A stretch of 64,000 nucleotides of DNA, taken from the NCBI GenBank assembly GCA_949127735.1, contig CASBPX010000065.1:1-64000 (forward strand), written 5' to 3'. Shown here piece after piece: positions 32,664 to 42,847 of the stretch. Below the pieces are notes generated by a model, which worked only from the letters and a program-made list of their open reading frames with translations, was not told the origin of the DNA and did not search any database. This DNA comes from Candidatus Obscuribacterales bacterium (GTDB lineage Bacteria; Cyanobacteriota; Vampirovibrionia; Obscuribacterales; Obscuribacteraceae). Made by a program: the position numbers and the translations under genes. Numbering within the stretch: position 1 is the stretch's first letter; each line of letters begins with the position of its first letter.

Positions 32664-33416
32664 ATGTTAGGCGGCGCTCTTTCGGGGATTGCCACAGGCA
32701 CATTACTTGGACTGCTCGGTGGAGGGGGAAGTATCATCGCTGTTCCCATTCTTGTGTATGTTTTCGGAATGGAAGCCAAAGCGGCTATTGGCACAAGTCT
32801 GCTTATTGTTGGTGTGGCAAGCCTGCTGGCGGCATGGAGTCATCACCGCGATCACTCGGTACTTGTTTCCACTGCGCTTGTATTCGGTGTAACAGGAGCT
32901 TTGGGCGCTTTTGCCGGCGCCAGGCTGGCACACAATATTTCAGACGTAGTGCAACTAACCATGTTCGCATTGGCGATGGCCCTTGTCGGGCTGCTCATGC
33001 TGAGACCTGGAAAAGCGACTACCGAGGCTGTTAGTGAGCCAAGCGTCACCGCACTACCAGTGGTGCTGGTAGTTGGGCTAGGCGCCGGTCTGTTGACTGG
33101 CCTGCTTGGTGTTGGCGGCGGATTTATAATTGTGCCTGCAATGACCATGCTTTTGCATCTGCCAATTAAGAAGGCGATTGGCACTTCATTGGTAGTTGTA
33201 GGCATCAACAGCATGGTCGCCGCGATCTCGTATGGTTCGTCCATCAATCTAAGTTTTGCAATTTTGCCTTTCGCCATAGGCACAGTTGTAGCGGCCCCGA
33301 TTGCTGGTCGATTGGCGCATTACATTCCCCAAGAAAGGCTGAAGACTGGCTTTGCGATTTGTCTGCTCATATTGTCTGCCTGGATGATGGGAAAACAGTT
33401 TTTAGTTAACTCTTGA
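32664..33416 (+). CDS. TSUP (TauE/SafE) sulfite-exporter-like permease
   Basis: The 250-aa membrane protein shows the two TSUP half-repeats: GTLLGLLGGGGSIIAVPILVY with GTSLLIVGVASL, and GLLTGLLGVGGGFIIVPAM with GTSLVVVGINSM. About eight membrane helices are expected. TSUP proteins export sulfite, thiosulfate or sulfonates. In this operon it should remove the sulfite made by the downstream persulfide dioxygenase. The upstream ribosome site is AGAGGAGG. Confidence 0.9.
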   Translation: MLGGALSGIATGTLLGLLGGGGSIIAVPILVYVFGMEAKAAIGTSLLIVGVASLLAAWSHHRDHSVLVSTALVFGVTGALGAFAGARLAHNISDVVQLTMFALAMALVGLLMLRPGKATTEAVSEPSVTALPVVLVVGLGAGLLTGLLGVGGGFIIVPAMTMLLHLPIKKAIGTSLVVVGINSMVAAISYGSSINLSFAILPFAIGTVVAAPIAGRLAHYIPQERLKTGFAICLLILSAWMMGKQFLVNS

Positions 33417-33431
33417 CGGTTGGAGGTTGAT

Positions 33432-34847
33432 ATGTTTTTCAAACAGTTTTATCTCGGTTGCCTGGCTCACGGCTCCTATCTGCTCGGTTCAGACGGTGAA
33501 GCCGTGGTGATCGACCCACAGAGAGACGTTGATCAGTACATTGAGGAGGCACAAGCACAGGGGCTCAAGATTAAGTATGTGATTGAAACGCACCTCCATG
33601 CCGACTTTGTCAGTGGGCACAGAGAGCTTTCGGAAAGAACCGGTGCGCAGATCGTTTTCGGCGAAAAGGCTAAAGCTACTTTCCCGCACATTGCCACCAG
33701 AGATGGTGACATCCTCAAAGTGGGCAGGCTGGAATTGAAGACATTTGAAACACCGGGTCACACACCTGAGAGCATTTGTATTCTCGCAAAAGATACGGCA
33801 GAAATTGGCAGTTCTGAAAAACTCTTCACCGGCGATACTCTCTTTATCGGAGACGTCGGACGTTCTGATCTGGTCGGGGCCAAAGGTCATACTGCGCAAG
33901 AGATGGCCGGACTAATGTACGAGACTCTTCACCGCAAGCTCCTCAATCTAAATGATGCCGTGGAAGTTTATCCGGCTCATGGGGCCGGCTCGCTCTGTGG
34001 TAAGCACCTTTCAAATGAAAAGTCATCGACTATCGGTCAGGAGAAGAAGTTCAACTATGCGTTAAAGCCTATGTCTAAAGAGGCTTTTGTTGAAATGATG
34101 ACTGCCGATCTACCAGAAGTGCCCGCCTATTTTCCCGAAGATGTGGAGATCAATCGCCGTGGTGCCGCGCCGTTGAGCACCATGGCGAGACCTCTGCCAC
34201 TAGACGCAGCCGCAGTGGCGAAGCAACTGGAGCGCGGTGCCCTCTTGCTCGATGTTCGCAGTGCAGTCGAGTATGCGGGTGGGCACATCAAAGGTTCGTT
34301 AAGCATCGGACTGGGCGGGCAGTTTGCCTCATGGGCAGGTACGCTGATCAAGGTTGGTACTCCCATAATTATTCTGGCAAATAGCCCGGCCGAAGTTGAT
34401 GAGGCGGTTATGAGACTTGCCCGCGTTGGCTTCGAGACCGTGGTCGGCTATGGCGACGCGATTGAAGGTTGGAGCAAGGGTGGCTTGGAAGTAGTTCGGT
34501 CGCTGATGGTAACTGTTGATGAACTGAATCAGATGCACACTGAAGGCGACGAAAAATTTGCGGTTATTGATGTTCGCCGCACTGGAGAATTCAACAGCGG
34601 ACACGTGCCGAACGCCATACATATTCCATTGGCTAATCTACCTGAGCGGCTCGGTGAGCTGCCGGCAGGCAAGTTGGCTCTCATTTGCGCCAGCGGTTAT
34701 CGTTCGACAATGGCGATGGGAATTCTGGAAAGACACGGAATGGTCACTGCTATGAACGTACTTGGTGGAACCAATGCGTGGAAAGCTGGCGGCTATGAAA
34801 TTGTGACTGAAAAAGAGGGGGCGAGCGAAAAAATAGCAATTGTTTGA
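33432..34847 (+). CDS. CstB-like persulfide dioxygenase with two rhodanese domains
   Basis: I start at ATG 33432 (TTGGAGG upstream). Residues 1-240 are an ETHE1-type metallo-beta-lactamase fold (iron ligands in THLHADFVSGH; FETPGHTPES; FTGDTLFIGDVGR; VYPAHGAGSLCG). Rhodanese 1 (LLDVRSAVEYAGGHIKGS) has ILANSPAEVDE where the catalytic Cys loop should be, so it is a pseudo-domain. Rhodanese 2 (VIDVRRTGEFNSGHVPNA) keeps the cysteine in LICASGYRSTMAM. This layout matches Staphylococcus CstB, which turns persulfide into thiosulfate. The product would go to the TSUP exporter. Confidence 0.88.
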   Translation: MFFKQFYLGCLAHGSYLLGSDGEAVVIDPQRDVDQYIEEAQAQGLKIKYVIETHLHADFVSGHRELSERTGAQIVFGEKAKATFPHIATRDGDILKVGRLELKTFETPGHTPESICILAKDTAEIGSSEKLFTGDTLFIGDVGRSDLVGAKGHTAQEMAGLMYETLHRKLLNLNDAVEVYPAHGAGSLCGKHLSNEKSSTIGQEKKFNYALKPMSKEAFVEMMTADLPEVPAYFPEDVEINRRGAAPLSTMARPLPLDAAAVAKQLERGALLLDVRSAVEYAGGHIKGSLSIGLGGQFASWAGTLIKVGTPIIILANSPAEVDEAVMRLARVGFETVVGYGDAIEGWSKGGLEVVRSLMVTVDELNQMHTEGDEKFAVIDVRRTGEFNSGHVPNAIHIPLANLPERLGELPAGKLALICASGYRSTMAMGILERHGMVTAMNVLGGTNAWKAGGYEIVTEKEGASEKIAIV

Positions 34848-34894
34848 TCTGCTGGAATCACGCAGCGAAGCGGGAAGTGCTTTAGGAGAGACTT

Positions 34895-36649
34895 ATGATA
34901 GTTAACGGTTCCGACATGGCCCCAAAGAAAATTGTCATCGTCGGTGGTGTCGCTGGTGGAATGAGTGCAGCTGCAAGAGCGCGACGCCTTTCTGAAGATT
35001 CGGAAATTATCGTCTTTGAACGAAGCGGCTACGTCTCCTATGCCAACTGCGGCTTGCCGTATTTTCTAGGGGGCGAGATTAACTCGCAAGACCAACTGAT
35101 CGTGGTCACACCTGACGCATTGAGAACCAAGCTCAATCTTGATATTCGCGTCCATCATGAAGTCGTGGAAATCAACCCGAAGACAAAGGTCATAACGGTA
35201 AGAGAGACGACTACTGAAAAGATCTACCAGGAAAGTTACGACGATTTGATTCTTTCGGTGGGTGCCGCCGCCATCAGACCGAACGTACCTGGAATCGAGT
35301 TGCCTGGGCTGTTCACGCTCCGCAATATAGAGGATGTTGAGTCGATTCAATCTTGGTTTGATGATCGAAAGCCACGCACAGCGGTAGTGGCCGGTGGCGG
35401 CTTCATCGGTCTGGAGATGGCAGAGCAGCTAGTTCGCAGGGGACTGGATATTACACTAATTGATGGCAAAGAACATGTGCTGGCGCCACTTGATATTGAA
35501 ATGGCGGAACTCGTGCACGATGAACTGCGCCACCATAAAGTCAAACTTGTACTGGGACAAACTATTGATGGCTTCCTTGCACCGGACCAACAAGTGGCAA
35601 CCGCAGAAGATGTTCCAAAATCATGCTGGGTTCTGGCCAGCGGACACGAGCCAATCCCAGCCGATCTTGTTATCCTCGGACTAGGAATTAGACCGGAAGT
35701 AATGCTGGCGCGTAATGCCGGATTAACCATTGGTGAGCGCGGTGGCATTCGGGTAAATGAAAATTTGCAAACTAGTTCACCGCACATATGGGCCGTAGGC
35801 GATGCCATTGAAGTGCGCAATCCAGTGAACGGCGAATGGACACTGATCGCTCTGGGAGGCCCGGCCAATCGCCAGGGACGAATTGCGGCAGACAACATTT
35901 TTGGCGCAAAACAAACTTATGATGGCACCATCGGCACTGCCATCCTTCGAGTTTTCGATCTGACCGTGGCATCGGTTGGACTGAATGAAGCGCAATTGAA
36001 ATCGATGCTTCCTTACGAGGCAATCTACCTGCATCCAAGCCATCACGCCAGCTATTATCCAGGGGCCGAGCGGCTTGACATGAAGGTGCTCTTCAATAAG
36101 GAAACCGGCACATTGCTGGGCGCGCAGGTGATCGGCAAGGAAGGGGTCGACAAGCGTATAGACGTCTTCGCTACCGCGTTAAAGGCGCGCATGAGCATAC
36201 GTGATTTGTCCGAGCTGGAACTGGCTTATGCACCGCCTTTTGGCTCAGCCAAAGATCCAATAAATCTAGCAGGAATGGCCGGTTCGAATGTCTTCGATGG
36301 CTTGACTGAGCAAGTGCAGTGGCATCAAGTGCCAGCATTGAGCATGGACGGGGCTGTAATTATCGATGTTCGCACTCGTGGTGAACGCGCTAAAGGCTAT
36401 ATCGATGGCAGTCTTCACATTCCGCTTGCTGAGCTAAGAAAACGGTTGTCGGAGATACCAGCGGAAAAAGAAATAATCACGTACTGTCAGAGCGGTCAGC
36501 GCTCTTACAACGCAACTCGTTTGCTCAGACAGAAAGGTTTCAAAGTAAAAAATTTAGCTGGTGGATATCTGACATGGAACTCGATGCAGTCAGCAGGCAA
36601 GAAATTAGGATTAGACCAGCATAGCGCACCACCAGTGATGGCAAGATAG
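34895..36649 (+). CDS. CoA-disulfide / persulfide reductase with C-terminal rhodanese
   Basis: The 584-aa flavoprotein starts with the FAD motif IVIVGGVAGGMSAAARARRL. The active-site cysteine is in YVSYANCGLPYFLGG, the pattern of CoA-disulfide reductases. The NAD(P)H motif is VVAGGGFIGLEMAEQL, the second FAD motif HIWAVGDAIEV, and a dimerisation domain follows. A C-terminal rhodanese (VIIDVRTRGERAKGYIDGS) has the catalytic ITYCQSGQRSYNA. This CDR-RHD fusion reduces polysulfide or CoA persulfide using NAD(P)H. The ribosome site TAGGAGAG lies upstream. Together with CstB it gives a reductive and an oxidative route for sulfane sulfur. Confidence 0.9.
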   Translation: MIVNGSDMAPKKIVIVGGVAGGMSAAARARRLSEDSEIIVFERSGYVSYANCGLPYFLGGEINSQDQLIVVTPDALRTKLNLDIRVHHEVVEINPKTKVITVRETTTEKIYQESYDDLILSVGAAAIRPNVPGIELPGLFTLRNIEDVESIQSWFDDRKPRTAVVAGGGFIGLEMAEQLVRRGLDITLIDGKEHVLAPLDIEMAELVHDELRHHKVKLVLGQTIDGFLAPDQQVATAEDVPKSCWVLASGHEPIPADLVILGLGIRPEVMLARNAGLTIGERGGIRVNENLQTSSPHIWAVGDAIEVRNPVNGEWTLIALGGPANRQGRIAADNIFGAKQTYDGTIGTAILRVFDLTVASVGLNEAQLKSMLPYEAIYLHPSHHASYYPGAERLDMKVLFNKETGTLLGAQVIGKEGVDKRIDVFATALKARMSIRDLSELELAYAPPFGSAKDPINLAGMAGSNVFDGLTEQVQWHQVPALSMDGAVIIDVRTRGERAKGYIDGSLHIPLAELRKRLSEIPAEKEIITYCQSGQRSYNATRLLRQKGFKVKNLAGGYLTWNSMQSAGKKLGLDQHSAPPVMAR

Positions 36650-36669
36650 TTAGGGAGGCAAGTTTTTGG

Positions 36670-36804
36670 ATGAACGAATCGATAAAGACACTAAAAAGAA
36701 AGAGGCAAATTCCCATGGAAAGTATGATCTGGTTGTTCGGCATTGTTTTAGTCTACTTTGCTCTGCAACTCTGGATACTGCCGAAGCTTGGCATATCTAC
36801 TTGA
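36670..36804 (+). CDS. 44-aa single-pass membrane peptide
   Basis: This frame is missing from the ORF track. It starts at ATG 36670 with GGGAGG upstream, or at the inner ATG 36715 with AGAGG upstream, and ends at TGA 36804. The peptide has a basic head (KTLKRKRQIP) and one helix (MIWLFGIVLVYFALQLWIL) ending PKLGIST. It is 20 bp after the reductase gene, so it is part of the persulfide operon. It may be a subunit or membrane tether, which is inference. Confidence 0.6.
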   Translation: MNESIKTLKRKRQIPMESMIWLFGIVLVYFALQLWILPKLGIST

Positions 36805-36877
36805 ATGTCGCGTAGCTGCTCGGTCGAGCAGCCGAAGACAACGCGTAATCAGCCAGAAGAAAAAGAGCCTATCAAGC

Positions 36878-38602
36878 ATGGTGAACCAGGCAAAAGCGAT
36901 TAGCTCCAGCTGTTTGACGCTGTTGTGCGTACTGATAGCACTTAGCCTCAGCGGTGCTGCGTGGTGCGAAGAGGGCCAGCCGACTGTTGCTCCAAGCTCA
37001 CTAGCTATGGGTGCGCGGTGCACAGAAGATGCCTCATGTGTAATTGTCGGCGACACGCACATGCTGGAATGGAAGAGCCCGGCTCCAGCCAAAATCGTTG
37101 TCGTGTGCATCCACGGCCTCGGTCTGTGCGCGAGGGCATACAAACCGCTAGCCAGAGAGTTCTCTGCGGCAGGCATTGATGGATTCGGTGTGAACGTGCG
37201 TGGCTTTGGTCCAGACAGAGACAAGCCAGAGCGTGCAAAATTGAATTGCGTAGAGACAGTAGGCGATGTAGGCAAGCTGCTTACCAGCATCCATAGAGAT
37301 CACCCTGATTACAAGGTGTTTCTTGTCGGTGAGTCAATGGGGGGTGCTCTCGCTATAAGAATCGCCGTTGAGAATCCAGGACTAGTAGATGGTGTCATTT
37401 GCTCGGCGCCGGCATGGAAATTACTCAAGGTGCGTGGAACGGCGGTGAAAGGCGTCTTTGAATTGTTTGTGTTTCCCGGAAGTCAGCCAGGTGCTGCCTC
37501 GCGAGCCGTCATGCACCAGGCCACCACAGACCCTGAGCTTACTGAGCACTGGCTGACAGATCCGTCTCACAAGTTGAAACTAACCTTCAAAGAAGCCACT
37601 TCTTTCTTGAGCTTCATCTCCAAGACAGAAGTCTACGCCAAACAACTGACAATACCAATCTTGGTTGTTCAAGGGCTCGATGATCATCTGGTTTCACCGG
37701 AAGCCGTTGCCAAACTTGTCAGAGACATCCCTTCCGGTAGCAAAACTTTTCTCATCGATGGCGAGGGCGAACATCTCCTTCTTGAAGAAGCAAAATTCAC
37801 ACCACTGTTGGTAGAGAAATTAATCAGCTGGATCAAGATTGACGCCATCGATAAATTTAAGACAGAAACCATCGAAGTCTTGAATGATCAAGCTCTTTCG
37901 CCTCAAGGAAAGCGGCGTTTGCAGGCATTATTGCGACTGGCCAAGACGAAGTTTGCAGTGAAGTGGGCTGGGGCTTTGCGAAATGTCCATCAGGGTTTAG
38001 ACTTTAGTGGCACGATTGCCCTGCCACCACTGGCAGAGCTACCGCATCTGTACGCGGTCGGTCCGTTGGAAGATCTGCTTGGCGAGGTCACGATATGGGA
38101 CGGCAAGGCACTGATTTCAAGGATAAAAGACGGGACGCTCAAGATCGATAATGTTCTTAGTAACAAGGCATGCTTTCTCGTATACGCTCAGGCGCGAGCG
38201 TGGAAGCGAATCAAGATTGGTTCTTCTGTGATCTTGAGTGAAGTCGATGGCGTGATAAAAAAGCAGGCCACTAAATGCGGTATCAAAACCAACCGTCCAT
38301 TTCCATTTTTGATTGAAGGCACAGCAAAAAACGCTCGATATCATGTGATGAACCGAACAGATTCGTCACCACCCGCGCCCGGCCCATCAGCTCATGAACA
38401 GGCAAAGGTCCGCTTTACGATCAAAAACATGCCGGTTCAGTTGCTCGGTTTTTACTCTGAGCATCACCAGGGTATCTTCACCCACCACAGTAGCTTCACT
38501 CACGTGCACGTAAAGACGAAGGACGGCAAAAATGCCGGACACTTAGAAGATATGCAATTGGAACCAGGAGCACTGCTGCTGCTGCCGAAGGGGTATCAGT
38601 GA
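36878..38602 (+). CDS. Secreted alpha/beta hydrolase fused to an acetolactate-decarboxylase-like domain
   Basis: I start at ATG 36878, which opens a signal peptide (CLTLLCVLIALSLSGAAWC). Residues 60-310 form a monoacylglycerol-lipase-type alpha/beta hydrolase: oxyanion region CIHGLGLCARAYK, nucleophile elbow LVGESMGGALA, acid VQGLDDHLVSPE and base GEGEHLLLEEA. Residues 380-570 resemble BudA-type acetolactate decarboxylase: HLYAVGPLEDLLGEVTIWDGK, then GFYSEHHQGIFTHHSS. The zinc-type pattern H-x-H-x10-H is in THVHVKTKDGKNAGHLED. Fusion of these two enzymes is odd and should act outside the cytoplasm. The hydrolase half is firm, the second half fairly so. Confidence 0.82.
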   Translation: MVNQAKAISSSCLTLLCVLIALSLSGAAWCEEGQPTVAPSSLAMGARCTEDASCVIVGDTHMLEWKSPAPAKIVVVCIHGLGLCARAYKPLAREFSAAGIDGFGVNVRGFGPDRDKPERAKLNCVETVGDVGKLLTSIHRDHPDYKVFLVGESMGGALAIRIAVENPGLVDGVICSAPAWKLLKVRGTAVKGVFELFVFPGSQPGAASRAVMHQATTDPELTEHWLTDPSHKLKLTFKEATSFLSFISKTEVYAKQLTIPILVVQGLDDHLVSPEAVAKLVRDIPSGSKTFLIDGEGEHLLLEEAKFTPLLVEKLISWIKIDAIDKFKTETIEVLNDQALSPQGKRRLQALLRLAKTKFAVKWAGALRNVHQGLDFSGTIALPPLAELPHLYAVGPLEDLLGEVTIWDGKALISRIKDGTLKIDNVLSNKACFLVYAQARAWKRIKIGSSVILSEVDGVIKKQATKCGIKTNRPFPFLIEGTAKNARYHVMNRTDSSPPAPGPSAHEQAKVRFTIKNMPVQLLGFYSEHHQGIFTHHSSFTHVHVKTKDGKNAGHLEDMQLEPGALLLLPKGYQ

Positions 38603-38655
38603 ACTAGAAATCGGCAAATTAAAAGATGATTCAAAGCGATAAGGAGGTTCAGTCA

Positions 38656-39195
38656 ATGCGAAAAGCGAAGTATTCGAATATTACGAAAGCCAAGGTCCGC
38701 GCCATAGTTCTCGCCGGTCTGACTGCTTTGGGGGGAATGGTCTGTTTTTTTGCAGAAGCGTCTCTAGCTCAGAATCAGAGCAATAAATTGCCAGCGTCAC
38801 CAATTAAAGCCTCCCTTAGTAGTGATACACCGAAGGTCATTCCGGGTAAGCCATTCACCCTGTTCGTCGTCTTCGATATGGAGCCCGGATGGCACATTTA
38901 TTACAAAGACCCTGGGCAAAGCGGCATGCCGACGCAAGTCGATTTGACTTTACCCAAAGGTTTCGCAGCACAGGCGCTAAGCTGGCCGCCACCGGAAACA
39001 TTCAAGGAAGTCGGCATTGTCACATACGGATATGCAAAGAAGCTGCGCCTTTCAACAATGGTGACGCCTTCCAAAGATCTTAAACCCGGAGAGTCGATCA
39101 AGATAAAAGCGGCAACAAGCTGGTTGGCTTGCAAACATAGTTGTGTTCCTGGAACCAGCTCAATTTCACTCGATCTAAAAGTCCAGACGAAATAG
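38656..39195 (+). CDS. Stand-alone DsbD N-terminal (alpha) domain protein
   Basis: The start is ATG 38656, with AAGGAGG upstream. A membrane/signal segment (AIVLAGLTALGGMVCFFAEA) precedes a domain like the N-terminal part of DsbD/ScsB: FDMEPGWHIYYKDPGQSGMPTQ, LSWPPPETFKEVGIVTYGY and ATSWLACKHSCVPG. The CKHSC pair is the likely redox couple. In full DsbD this domain relays electrons from a membrane domain to periplasmic partners; here the membrane and thioredoxin parts are absent. It follows the lipase fusion by 53 bp and may act with it or with the sulfur cluster. Confidence 0.8.
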   Translation: MRKAKYSNITKAKVRAIVLAGLTALGGMVCFFAEASLAQNQSNKLPASPIKASLSSDTPKVIPGKPFTLFVVFDMEPGWHIYYKDPGQSGMPTQVDLTLPKGFAAQALSWPPPETFKEVGIVTYGYAKKLRLSTMVTPSKDLKPGESIKIKAATSWLACKHSCVPGTSSISLDLKVQTK

Positions 39196-39211
39196 CGGCA
39201 AACGCCAGACT

Positions 39212-40984
39212 TTAAACTTTGGTTGCTAACCGAGGCTTGTCGCCAAGCATCTTCTCAAGTCCGGAGGTGTCTGAGGGAGCCTGAGTCAGCCATGGCACCA
39301 CCGCAACGCGGCTGGAGAGTTGCTCTACTTCTTTGATGTATGCTTTTTCGTTTACTTGACGGCTGAGCAAAACAGGATTTGCAGTCTCAACCGGAGATAG
39401 CGACTGATTGATTATCCATGCAAATGGATGAATATCGGCTCTGGCAAGATCCTCTTGCAGGCGCTTTGCCTCATGCACCGGAGTGGCTTCCGCCAACGTT
39501 ATGATCAATATACGAGTAAATACTGGGTCTCGTAGTCTCGGCAATAAATTAATCACGGAGTCAGGCATGTTACTTGATTGACGCATTACTTCTTTGTGAT
39601 AAGCCTGGGCGGCATCTAGCAGCAGGATTGTGTGTCCGGTTGGTGCCGTATCTAGTACCACAAAACCAGCTTGTCCCTTGGCGACAATGTTGGCAAAACT
39701 TCTGAACACTGCTACTTCTTCAGTACAAGGAGAGCGAAGATCCTCGTCAAGCAGAGCTCGCCCCTCGTCATCAAGATTGCTGCCTGCGCTTTGCATAACT
39801 TCCTTTTGATACGCTCTGGTTTCTTCGGCAGGATCTATTCGACTGATCGTCAGGTTCGCAACTGAATGCTCCACGACCCAAGAGATGTGAGCGGCCGGGT
39901 CTGTTGTGCTCAAATGCACTGGATTGCCTCGACGCGCCAGTTCTACTGCTATTGCCGCAGCAATACTCGTTTTGCCGACACCACCTTTGCCCATGGTCAT
40001 AATCACGCCTTTTCCTGCTTTCTCCAGCTCGTCGACGATATTAACTAGAGATTGCGGAAGTTTGTCATTGCTTGATTCGTGTGCAGGAGCAATTACTGAG
40101 GCTTCAAGGTTGAACATACTGCGAAGCGCCTTCACACCAAGCAGTGCAGTTGCACTCAGTAGTATTTCCTGGGTAGGAAGCTTTTTCAATGACTGCGGCA
40201 TGGAATCCATCGCCGCCTGTGCACGGGTGGCAAACGCGGTCGCTGTAGCATCACCAGTAGTATCAGCGCTGAGAACACCATTTAATACCAGGCATTGATT
40301 GGCGACGCCAATCTCCATCAGCTCAGCGCTTGTGTTTGCGGCTTCCCGCAATGCTGATTGCTCTTGGCGCGAAACAAGCACGAGCGTTGTGCGAGCACCG
40401 TCCATGAGTGTGCGAACTGACGAAGCGTAAGTGTCTTGTTGTTGTTGAAGCCCAGCAAGAGGACCGAGGCACGATGTGCCGGTTGTATTGCCTTCAATAA
40501 AGGTGGTCCAAGATTTTGGCAAAGACAGAAGACGCATGGTGTGGCCGCTCGGGGCCGTATCAAATATAACGTGATCGTAGTTAGCGGTGTGATTAGCATC
40601 GCCGAGAAGACGAGCAAACTCATCAAATGCGGCAATCTCAGTTGTGCATGAGCCAGACAGTTGTTCTTCCATGCTCTTTAAACTTGCCTCCGGCAACAGA
40701 CCACGATAAGGGCTAAGCAGTCTTTCCCTGTATTCAAGTGCGGCCGCTTCCGGATCGATATTTAAGGCATCAAGTCTGCTTACACCGGGCACTGATGTTG
40801 GAGTCGACTTCAGGTCGACATGCAGCACTTCGTCGAGGTTCGAGGCCGGGTCTGTGCTTACGAGCAATACTCGTCGCCCTTTGTCGGCCAGCGCAATTGC
40901 TGCTGCGCAAGAAACGGAAGTTTTGCCTACTCCACCCTTGCCGGTAAAGAACATGTATTTGGTGGCTTGTTCAACCAGGTTCAT
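39212..40984 (-). CDS. arsA: Arsenite-stimulated ATPase ArsA (duplicated halves)
   Basis: The 590-aa protein has two ATPase halves, as in classical ArsA. Walker A1 is FTGKGGVGKTSVSCA and Walker A2 is TMGKGGVGKTSIAAA; the switch regions are VIFDTAPSGHTMRLL and VVLDTAPTGHTILLL. It normally powers an ArsB or Acr3 permease to push arsenite out. Its start overlaps arsD by 4 bp (ATGA). Because the permease gene in this operon is reduced to a remnant, its partner must be elsewhere or is lost. Confidence 0.93.
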   Translation of the reverse strand: MNLVEQATKYMFFTGKGGVGKTSVSCAAAIALADKGRRVLLVSTDPASNLDEVLHVDLKSTPTSVPGVSRLDALNIDPEAAALEYRERLLSPYRGLLPEASLKSMEEQLSGSCTTEIAAFDEFARLLGDANHTANYDHVIFDTAPSGHTMRLLSLPKSWTTFIEGNTTGTSCLGPLAGLQQQQDTYASSVRTLMDGARTTLVLVSRQEQSALREAANTSAELMEIGVANQCLVLNGVLSADTTGDATATAFATRAQAAMDSMPQSLKKLPTQEILLSATALLGVKALRSMFNLEASVIAPAHESSNDKLPQSLVNIVDELEKAGKGVIMTMGKGGVGKTSIAAAIAVELARRGNPVHLSTTDPAAHISWVVEHSVANLTISRIDPAEETRAYQKEVMQSAGSNLDDEGRALLDEDLRSPCTEEVAVFRSFANIVAKGQAGFVVLDTAPTGHTILLLDAAQAYHKEVMRQSSNMPDSVINLLPRLRDPVFTRILIITLAEATPVHEAKRLQEDLARADIHPFAWIINQSLSPVETANPVLLSRQVNEKAYIKEVEQLSSRVAVVPWLTQAPSDTSGLEKMLGDKPRLATKV

Positions 40985-41379
40985 TGATTTTCCTTTGAAT
41001 TAACCGGCGGAGCGCTGCAGCAACCAGAGCCGACGGCAACTTGTTGTTCAACAGTAAATTTGAGCCCGCTCTTGGGCGCCTCAAGACCGGCCATCTGAGC
41101 CAGTTTATCTCGTTTTGGATAGGCGCCTTGAAAAATTATTTTTCCATCGACAAGAATAAGAGGAAGGCATTCGTTGCCGTCTTTCTTGAGCGCATCGGTG
41201 ACGGTGGCGTTGCTCACGAAGGCCTGCGTCTGTTGGGATAGATTGTACCGCTCTACTTCAATTCCCTGGCGCTTCAGCCAATCAAGATCAGCTGTGAACT
41301 CAACAAGGGCTGGATCGACACCTGGTCCACAGATACCGGTTGAACAGCACATTGGTGGATCGAAAATCTGGACTTTCAT
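40981..41379 (-). CDS. arsD: Arsenite metallochaperone ArsD
   Basis: The N-terminus holds the ArsD trithiol site (PPMCCSTGICGPGVDPAL), where the C-C...C triad takes arsenite from glutathione and hands it to ArsA. The thioredoxin-like fold continues with LPLILVDGKIIFQGAYPKRD. A C-terminal GCCSAPP adds the extra cysteine pair seen in some ArsD proteins. It overlaps arsA at ATGA, so they are translationally coupled. It is 2 bp after the acr3 remnant ORF. Confidence 0.93.
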   Translation of the reverse strand: MKVQIFDPPMCCSTGICGPGVDPALVEFTADLDWLKRQGIEVERYNLSQQTQAFVSNATVTDALKKDGNECLPLILVDGKIIFQGAYPKRDKLAQMAGLEAPKSGLKFTVEQQVAVGSGCCSAPPVNSKENQ

Positions 41380-41381
41380 TT

Positions 41382-41582
41382 TTAGCTCCTTTTCCTTTCA
41401 AGACCGACACTTGTCGGTCCCAGTTCCGTACTGTTAACTTTTAAGATTGATTTTTTGCAATACCCCTCTCGTATTCCTGCTCCGATGCAGAGAAATACCC
41501 AGACTGTAAGCCAACGTTCGAAGAATCCAATCGACGCTTCTTCAGGTGGATTCGCTATTGTCTCTTCCGCTTGCGTGATCAT
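41382..41582 (-). pseudogene. Remnant of acr3 arsenite permease (5' end only)
   Basis: The 66-codon ORF begins like an Acr3 permease, with a short hydrophilic head then SIGFFERWLTVWVFLCIGAGI, the first helix of that family. After about residue 40 the reading changes to KKSILKVNSTELGPT with no membrane character and stops 2 bp before arsD. Roughly 300 codons are missing, so this looks like an internal deletion between the acr3 head and arsD. It sits exactly where a permease gene is expected in an ars operon. Confidence 0.62.
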
Positions 41583-41658
41583 CGACTGTTATCCAGCTCC
41601 AAATTGTAAATGCGTTGCGCGTGTGGTCAACATTGGGAGCGAGACGGAACGCACCTTG

Positions 41659-42051
41659 TTACTTTGCGACTTTCGTTCTAGCCAATTGTTCGACTTTCGT
41701 TTTAATTTCATCACGGACACGGCGAAATTCTTCTATTGGCTGGCCCTTTGGGTCGTCGATAGCCCAGTTTGCCTGCGTGCCAATGAATGTGGACGGGCAG
41801 AAATCAGCTGTTTTGATGGAGCACATGGAAATCACGGCATCGTAGTCACCAAGCTTCTCGCTGTCGATTGCTTTGGAGAATTGCTTGGATATGTCAACTC
41901 CTGATTCGTCCATCACTTTTATTGCGTCAGGGTTGACGCCAGTGCCTGCTTTGACGCCCGCGCTATCTGCTTGGAGGCCGAATTGACGGCCAAATCCCTC
42001 AGCTATCTGGCTACGGCAGGTGTTCTCGGCACAAATGAATAGAACCTTCAC
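41659..42051 (-). CDS. arsC: Arsenate reductase, low-molecular-weight phosphatase type
   Basis: I start at GTG 42051, which overlaps the stop of arsI (GTGA) and has AAAGGAG upstream; the track extension to 42273 is an artefact. The P-loop CAENTCRSQIAEG follows the CX5R plan. The relay cysteines are probably those in SMCSIKTADFCPS, and the WAIDDPKGQP loop supplies the general acid Asp. It reduces arsenate to arsenite using thioredoxin. The 130-aa length is normal. Confidence 0.92.
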   Translation of the reverse strand: MKVLFICAENTCRSQIAEGFGRQFGLQADSAGVKAGTGVNPDAIKVMDESGVDISKQFSKAIDSEKLGDYDAVISMCSIKTADFCPSTFIGTQANWAIDDPKGQPIEEFRRVRDEIKTKVEQLARTKVAK

Positions 42052-42548
42052 TGACTGCACTCCTTCTTTCCGATTTGTACTGGTACAGCTTCTGGTACTA
42101 TCTCTGGTACTATTTCTGATACTGCCTCTGGTGCACAGCAAGCGGCTTTGCTTTCGCGCGGGAGCTGTACATCTTCGCCATAAGTGGTTGCTTCGCCGGT
42201 GGTATAGAAGGACTCCCAGGCGATTCCTTGCGGATCGTGAACCCATGTTTTGTCCGATTGTGCATAACAACAAGTAGTTTTCTCTTGCTCAAGGATGTCT
42301 TGCTTGGCTTGTTTTAGCCGCAGAGATATTTCCTTCAATGAGTCGTCGTCATCAACCTGAATTCCCAGGTGATCGAGACCTGGTTGGGTTCCGCGTTTTG
42401 AGATAGCGAAATTAATGCGTGGATCATCGAGCATCCACTTTGCGTAGTCTTCTTTCTGAACAGATGGTTGGGTGTTGAAGAATGTCGTATAGAACTGAAT
42501 AGATTGATTCAGATCTGCTACTGCAACATGGACGTGAAACCTTTTCAT
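42048..42548 (-). CDS. arsI: ArsI/CadI-like vicinal-oxygen-chelate protein
   Basis: The real start is the Met at 42548, overlapping the arsR stop (TAATG). The 166-aa protein has the ArsI/CadI glyoxalase pattern: HVHVAVADLNQSIQFYTTFF, GLDHLGIQVDDDDSL, and the cysteine pair in KTTCCYAQSDKTWVHDP followed by the metal ligand Glu in WESFYTTG. ArsI cleaves the carbon-arsenic bond of methylarsenite; CadI relatives are metal-induced with unclear roles. Presence in the ars operon favours ArsI. The C-terminal tail is Val/Pro-rich with another CC pair (KAACCAPE). Confidence 0.85.
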   Translation of the reverse strand: MKRFHVHVAVADLNQSIQFYTTFFNTQPSVQKEDYAKWMLDDPRINFAISKRGTQPGLDHLGIQVDDDDSLKEISLRLKQAKQDILEQEKTTCCYAQSDKTWVHDPQGIAWESFYTTGEATTYGEDVQLPRESKAACCAPEAVSEIVPEIVPEAVPVQIGKKECSQ

Positions 42549-42847
42549 TAGCAATTGCCTCCATTGTCGACGCAACAGTTTTCCATGAGGAAGCTCAGCA
42601 ATTCTTGCATTTGAGCATAATCAGCTGAATAGATAATTGATCTACTCTCGCGCCGTGACACTATCAAGCCAGCGTTGTTGAGTTCCTTCAGGTGGAATGA
42701 CATCGTCGCTGGTGGCATTCCAAAGTGGGTACTTAAATCGCCTGCCGCCATACCGGCAGTTCCCTTCCTGACCAGCAGGCGAAAAATTTCCAGACGTGAT
42801 TCTTGTGCCAATGCCGCCAGGGCGTTAACCGCGTTTTTCGTTTTCAT
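42548..42847 (-). CDS. arsR: Arsenic-responsive ArsR repressor
   Basis: A 99-aa winged-helix repressor (LAQESRLEIFRLLV, HFGMPPATMSFHLKEL, RRESRSIIYSADYAQM). It ends in ENCCVDNGGNC, a C-terminal cysteine cluster much like the C95-C96-C102 arsenite site of Acidithiobacillus-type ArsR but with one extra residue before the last Cys. Arsenite binding should release it from DNA. It is the first gene of the ars operon and lies next to a dyad operator. Confidence 0.92.
   Translation of the reverse strand: MKTKNAVNALAALAQESRLEIFRLLVRKGTAGMAAGDLSTHFGMPPATMSFHLKELNNAGLIVSRRESRSIIYSADYAQMQELLSFLMENCCVDNGGNC

Follow-up and report, generated by a model that had tools for sequence, protein, structure and literature searches.

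A predicted exported protein of Obscuribacterales that joins a lipase-type hydrolase to a domain of acetolactate decarboxylase fold

Introduction

Which reaction would a protein carry out when a lipase-type hydrolase continues, within a single reading frame, into a domain resembling acetolactate decarboxylase (ALDC)? The question is raised by a stretch of 64,000 nucleotides (the window) from a draft genome that totals 4.7 Mb in 246 contigs at 78% completeness, whose named relatives are Obscuribacterales or Melainabacteria-type “Cyanobacteria”. The Obscuribacterales are little-known, non-photosynthetic relatives of cyanobacteria. Automatic annotation would label the C-terminal half of this protein an acetolactate decarboxylase; its residues support the fold but make that function improbable.

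Results

The fusion is encoded by a single uninterrupted frame of 574 aa (36878..38602, + strand), and the original prediction that a hydrolase and an ALDC-like domain share one ORF is borne out by Pfam matches to both halves. The start codon at 36878 fits, as it opens a signal-peptide-like beginning and relatives begin at the equivalent codon. Specifically, the N-terminus (MVNQAKAISSSCLTLLCVLIALSLSGAAWCEEG; residues 1 to ~31, 36878..36970, + strand, with only an approximate cleavage site) is basic over a short part, then hydrophobic, and finally rich in Ala; a helix is predicted at residues 5-25 in an AlphaFold model of the whole fusion. These features suggest that the protein is exported, in line with the signal peptide proposed originally. 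The full-length model is otherwise poor (pLDDT 58.4) and too weak for placing the domains relative to each other.

The first half contains a monoglyceride-lipase-like alpha/beta hydrolase domain (residues 70-305; 37085..37792, + strand), over which Pfam Hydrolase_4 (PF12146) matches with an E-value of 4.7e-35. Its nearest solved structures are monoglyceride lipases (PDB search, E 1e-17), and Foldseek agrees. The complete serine-hydrolase triad that had been read from the motifs GESMGG, DDH, and GEH is present: the nucleophile Ser153 (codon 37334-37336), the acid Asp269 (37682-37684), and His299 (37772-37774), all on the + strand, are invariant in an alignment with seven relatives, and of the two aspartates in the DDH motif (D268-D269), only Asp269 is conserved among them. 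By homology, these comparisons establish this half as a monoglyceride-lipase-type alpha/beta hydrolase with an intact Ser-Asp-His triad. Elsewhere, hydrolase copies L043, L069 (G127:C415), and G075:C19 look truncated or frameshifted and are possible pseudogenes.

The second half is occupied by the ALDC-fold domain (residues 368-574; 37979..38599, + strand), as delimited by PF03306, alignments A1 and A3, a structural model, and a fold search. Originally placed at residues 380-574, the domain keeps its C-terminal end, with a start nearer 368. Pfam AAL_decarboxy (PF03306) matches residues 394-564 (E 3.6e-7; 30.2 bits against a gathering cut-off of 25), and TIGR01252, the NCBIfam equivalog for acetolactate decarboxylase, is not reached, with a score of 15.4 bits where 180.65 would be needed. 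The isolated domain was modeled with AlphaFold2 (mean pLDDT 88.3, pTM 0.88) from 13 related sequences, of which five were ordinary ALDCs that may bias the model toward the ALDC fold. The best fold matches of the model are solved ALDCs, with Foldseek E-values down to 4e-14 and VIA-align Z-scores of 21.9-23.4 (rmsd 2.3-3.0 over 200-205 residues), followed by PTD012/C11orf54 (Z 13.5) and then by PPC/DUF296 proteins (Z 7-9); the Pfam family of PTD012/DUF1907 (PF08925) does not match the protein at E <= 1. Despite the possible bias of the model, the ALDC fold is supported independently by the PF03306 match and by a PDB profile search, in which a domain profile without the true ALDC rows retrieved the ALDC structure 5YHO (E 8.6e-5). 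A structural match to the decarboxylase fold, the point on which the original prediction was to stand or fall, was thus obtained.

The residues of the domain can be read against those of ALDC using the numbering and residue roles (Arg145, Glu253, Glu65, and zinc His194/196/207) of the Brevibacillus brevis enzyme. The three zinc histidines, His542, His544, and His555 (38501, 38507, and 38540, + strand), which form the HVH-x10-H pattern noticed originally in a domain of BudA-like spacing, and Glu403 of a GE motif (38084, + strand), the equivalent of Glu65, are invariant in 13 alignment rows comprising the exported copies and true ALDCs; these metal-site residues and many around them remain invariant down to 27-39% identity. 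The sequence comparisons and the model agree on an ALDC fold in which the zinc ligands are kept. At the Arg145 position, the protein has His489 (38342, + strand), and His stands there in each of the eight copies from the family, as well as in an Acinetobacter relative. Of the five true ALDC rows, four have Arg at this position and the other, L011, is divergent. Further, the protein ends ~19 residues past the last zinc His, so that the Glu253-bearing C-terminal tail is absent, as it is from every exported copy of the subfamily in the alignments; ALDC rows L007-L010 retain this tail. Given the His at the Arg145 position, the absent Glu253 tail, and the unreached TIGR01252, ALDC activity appears unlikely. 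The earlier expectation of another substrate therefore stands on the replaced Arg and the missing tail. The reason then given, namely that no free acetolactate should occur beyond the cytoplasm, carries little weight, since the ALDC of B. brevis is a secreted enzyme and fermenters excrete acetolactate.

Five genomes, all from a single Obscuribacterales family, carry the fusion (that of the window and those with L001, L002, L003, and L012). A profile of the domain, run against 50 genomes of this family, recovered eight copies in seven genomes, of which five were fused and three stood alone (L014, L077, and L013). Elsewhere in the phylum, a sample of 385 genomes yielded no copy of the domain; as the genomes listed for that sample include no member of the window's own family, this negative says nothing about close relatives. 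No relatives of the domain were found in a phage collection, and a plasmid search returned one, from Acinetobacter sp. LoGeW2-3. Orthologues of the hydrolase without the domain are common (e.g., L004 and L005); that of L005 is 78% identical to the hydrolase of the fusion, stops where the domain would start, and is followed by the same DsbD-N gene. In genome G146, a lone domain with its own signal-peptide-like start sits in the same slot, between a CoA-disulfide-reductase-like gene and arsA. The ALDC-fold domain is hence a separable and optional module, since close relatives have the hydrolase alone or the exported domain alone, once in the same slot. In the hydrolase tree, the five fused members fall in three places, with three changes of state. 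A single origin of the fusion, modeled as one fused clade, was weakly rejected (p-AU 0.040) on this poorly resolved tree, and the domain tree was excluded from inference because of its very long outgroup branches. Repeated loss or gain of the domain thus seems likelier than a single fusion origin. Neither this modular evolution nor the overlap with a selenoprotein ORF, described below, figured in the original prediction.

The fusion gene lies in a conserved locus (32664-42847) in which persulfide/sulfide genes are joined to ars genes. The upstream neighbor is a CoA-disulfide-reductase-like flavoprotein with a rhodanese domain (34895..36649, + strand), and downstream of the fusion is an exported DsbD N-terminal-domain protein (PF11412; 38626..39195, + strand). 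As assigned by Pfam, the sulfur genes of the locus comprise these two, a TauE exporter, and a metallo-beta-lactamase/rhodanese, and the arsenic genes comprise ArsA, ArsD, an ArsC-type phosphatase, a glyoxalase-family protein, and ArsR. We infer a sulfur/arsenic stress locus, any tie of which to the substrate of the enzyme would be putative.

Overlapping the start of the fusion is the 3' end of a small membrane ORF (MIWLFGIVLVYFALQLWILPKLGIST-U-MSRSCSVEQ...; 36724..36903, + strand), in which an in-frame UGA (36802-36804) is followed by a bSECIS-like hairpin, GCUGCUC-GGUC-GAGCAGC (36815..36832, + strand), with its loop 17 nt past the UGA. The SECIS of E. coli fdhF has the same GGUC loop. ORFs with the family motif PKLGIxT-U-MSRSC were found in 34 of the 289 genomes of the class that were searched, all 34 in Obscuribacterales, and at almost every place the match contained exactly one stop, a UGA. 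In the homologue of genome G129, Cys (UGU) replaces the UGA and the hairpin is degenerate; Sec/Cys exchange is usual among selenoprotein homologues. SelA, SelB, and tRNA-Sec are all encoded in the window's genome, above cut-offs. The expected marks of a bacterial selenoprotein, namely a conserved in-frame UGA, a bSECIS-like hairpin, a Cys homologue, and the Sec machinery, are therefore all present. An Rfam scan of this conserved upstream region returned no family, and the conservation corresponds to the coding selenoprotein ORF with its hairpin. No family for the ORF was found in NCBIfam or Pfam, and none of the 119 selenoprotein families and subfamilies catalogued in a 2026 review (PMC13188914) resembles it. 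It is probably an undescribed small membrane selenoprotein and would be a candidate new family.

At six loci, the end of the selenoprotein ORF and the start of the hydrolase (in G146, of the lone domain) share exactly 26 nt; at three others the overlap is 23-71 nt, and at one there is none. This arrangement, usually of 26 nt, makes it likely that translation of the fusion gene is coupled to that of the selenoprotein. At L079, L081, and L085, the selenoprotein ORF stands beside rhodanese and persulfide genes in the absence of the hydrolase, and its firmer tie is therefore to the sulfur cluster. A second copy in the window's genome lies away from the hydrolase (L067 4767-4991; G000:C81:12766-12888).

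Discussion

The reading that we favor, with about even confidence, is an exported two-domain enzyme in which a lipase-type hydrolase is paired with a zinc domain of ALDC fold that probably carries out a reaction other than that of ALDC. A short linker joins the hydrolase to this domain, which keeps all four zinc-site residues. The hydrolase would cleave an ester in the periplasm or beyond the cell, freeing a small carbonyl or hydroxy acid (or an alcohol), and the zinc domain would then work on the released product as a Lewis-acid enzyme, by decarboxylation or a related enolate reaction. The two domains may act in sequence or in parallel in the periplasm; their activities need not be sequential, since the lone hydrolase and the lone domain both exist. 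Acetolactate decarboxylation itself is improbable, since ALDC's substrate-binding Arg is replaced and its Glu-bearing tail is missing. Chemistry other than that of ALDC is plausible for the domain, given that C11orf54, which shares the fold, has been identified as a decarboxylase acting on beta-ketogulonate (PMC12435205), a reaction assigned to this member of the superfamily only recently. Further, the lipase partner gives a clue to the kind of substrate, namely something released by ester cleavage, and thereby makes the subfamily testable. Translation of the fusion would probably be coupled to that of the overlapping selenoprotein, within a sulfur/arsenic stress locus. A more far-reaching version, which we put forward tentatively and think rather unlikely, is that of an exported ALDC-fold zinc subfamily with a new reaction, working with the lipase and with a newly seen membrane selenoprotein, the UGA read-through of which is translationally coupled to it, in a sulfide/persulfide-arsenic response known so far from Obscuribacterales alone.

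Alternatively, the C-terminal domain could be a non-catalytic binder of a metal or ligand (e.g., zinc, arsenite, or a thiol metabolite) with a supporting role for the hydrolase or for the sulfur/arsenic locus. The loss of two catalytic features of ALDC, the ars and persulfide genes nearby, and the metal-containing proteins of unknown chemistry within the related PPC fold would all suit such a role. Nevertheless, the invariance of the four metal-site residues and their surroundings at 27-39% identity is what one would sooner expect of a functioning active site, and we consider a binder unlikely. Another reading, in which the domain is a zinc-dependent esterase next to the lipase, draws on the hydrolysis of p-nitrophenyl acetate by C11orf54 (PMC12435205). 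As the same study identifies that protein as a decarboxylase, the activity may be incidental, and a second esterase seems distinctly improbable. A genuine exported ALDC, making acetoin outside the cell, is also highly doubtful: although the fold, the zinc ligands, and a PF03306 score above cut-off are those expected of it, and the Acinetobacter relative bears the annotation, the TIGR01252 score is far below cut-off, His takes the Arg145 position, and the Glu253 tail is absent. The secretion of ALDC by B. brevis lends this alternative some precedent. Finally, the joining of two genes by misassembly or frameshift, conceivable in a draft genome of 246 contigs and 78% completeness, is refuted, as is chance, by the recurrence of this fusion, with a linker of like kind, in four further genomes that were assembled and made public separately.

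Returning to the two-domain enzyme, each part has recognizable counterparts. The hydrolase domain, with its nucleophile elbow and triad, resembles monoglyceride lipases (M. tuberculosis Rv0183 and human MGLL), from which the fusion differs by a signal-peptide-like start, by GESMGG in place of GHSMGG, and by the extra domain. For the C-terminal domain, PTD012/C11orf54 (PF08925; 1XCR) shares the superfamily fold and a three-His zinc site, but is larger, eukaryotic, not exported, and not found by sequence. The plasmid-borne protein of Acinetobacter sp. LoGeW2-3 (WP_099339756.1; L078 3902-4654) looks exported, matches the domain along its full length at 27% identity, and likewise has His at the Arg145 position, whereas it stands alone, without the hydrolase; its label “acetolactate decarboxylase” is probably a misannotation, judging from its residues. 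Trp-His is found in its Arg145 region. Closest in fold are the ALDCs themselves (PF03306; B. brevis 4BT2 and B. subtilis AlsD 5XNE; Z 22-23), which share the HxHx10H zinc ligands and the Glu65 equivalent with a domain that, at ~17-22% identity, has His at the Arg145 position, lacks the Glu253 tail, and is fused to a lipase.
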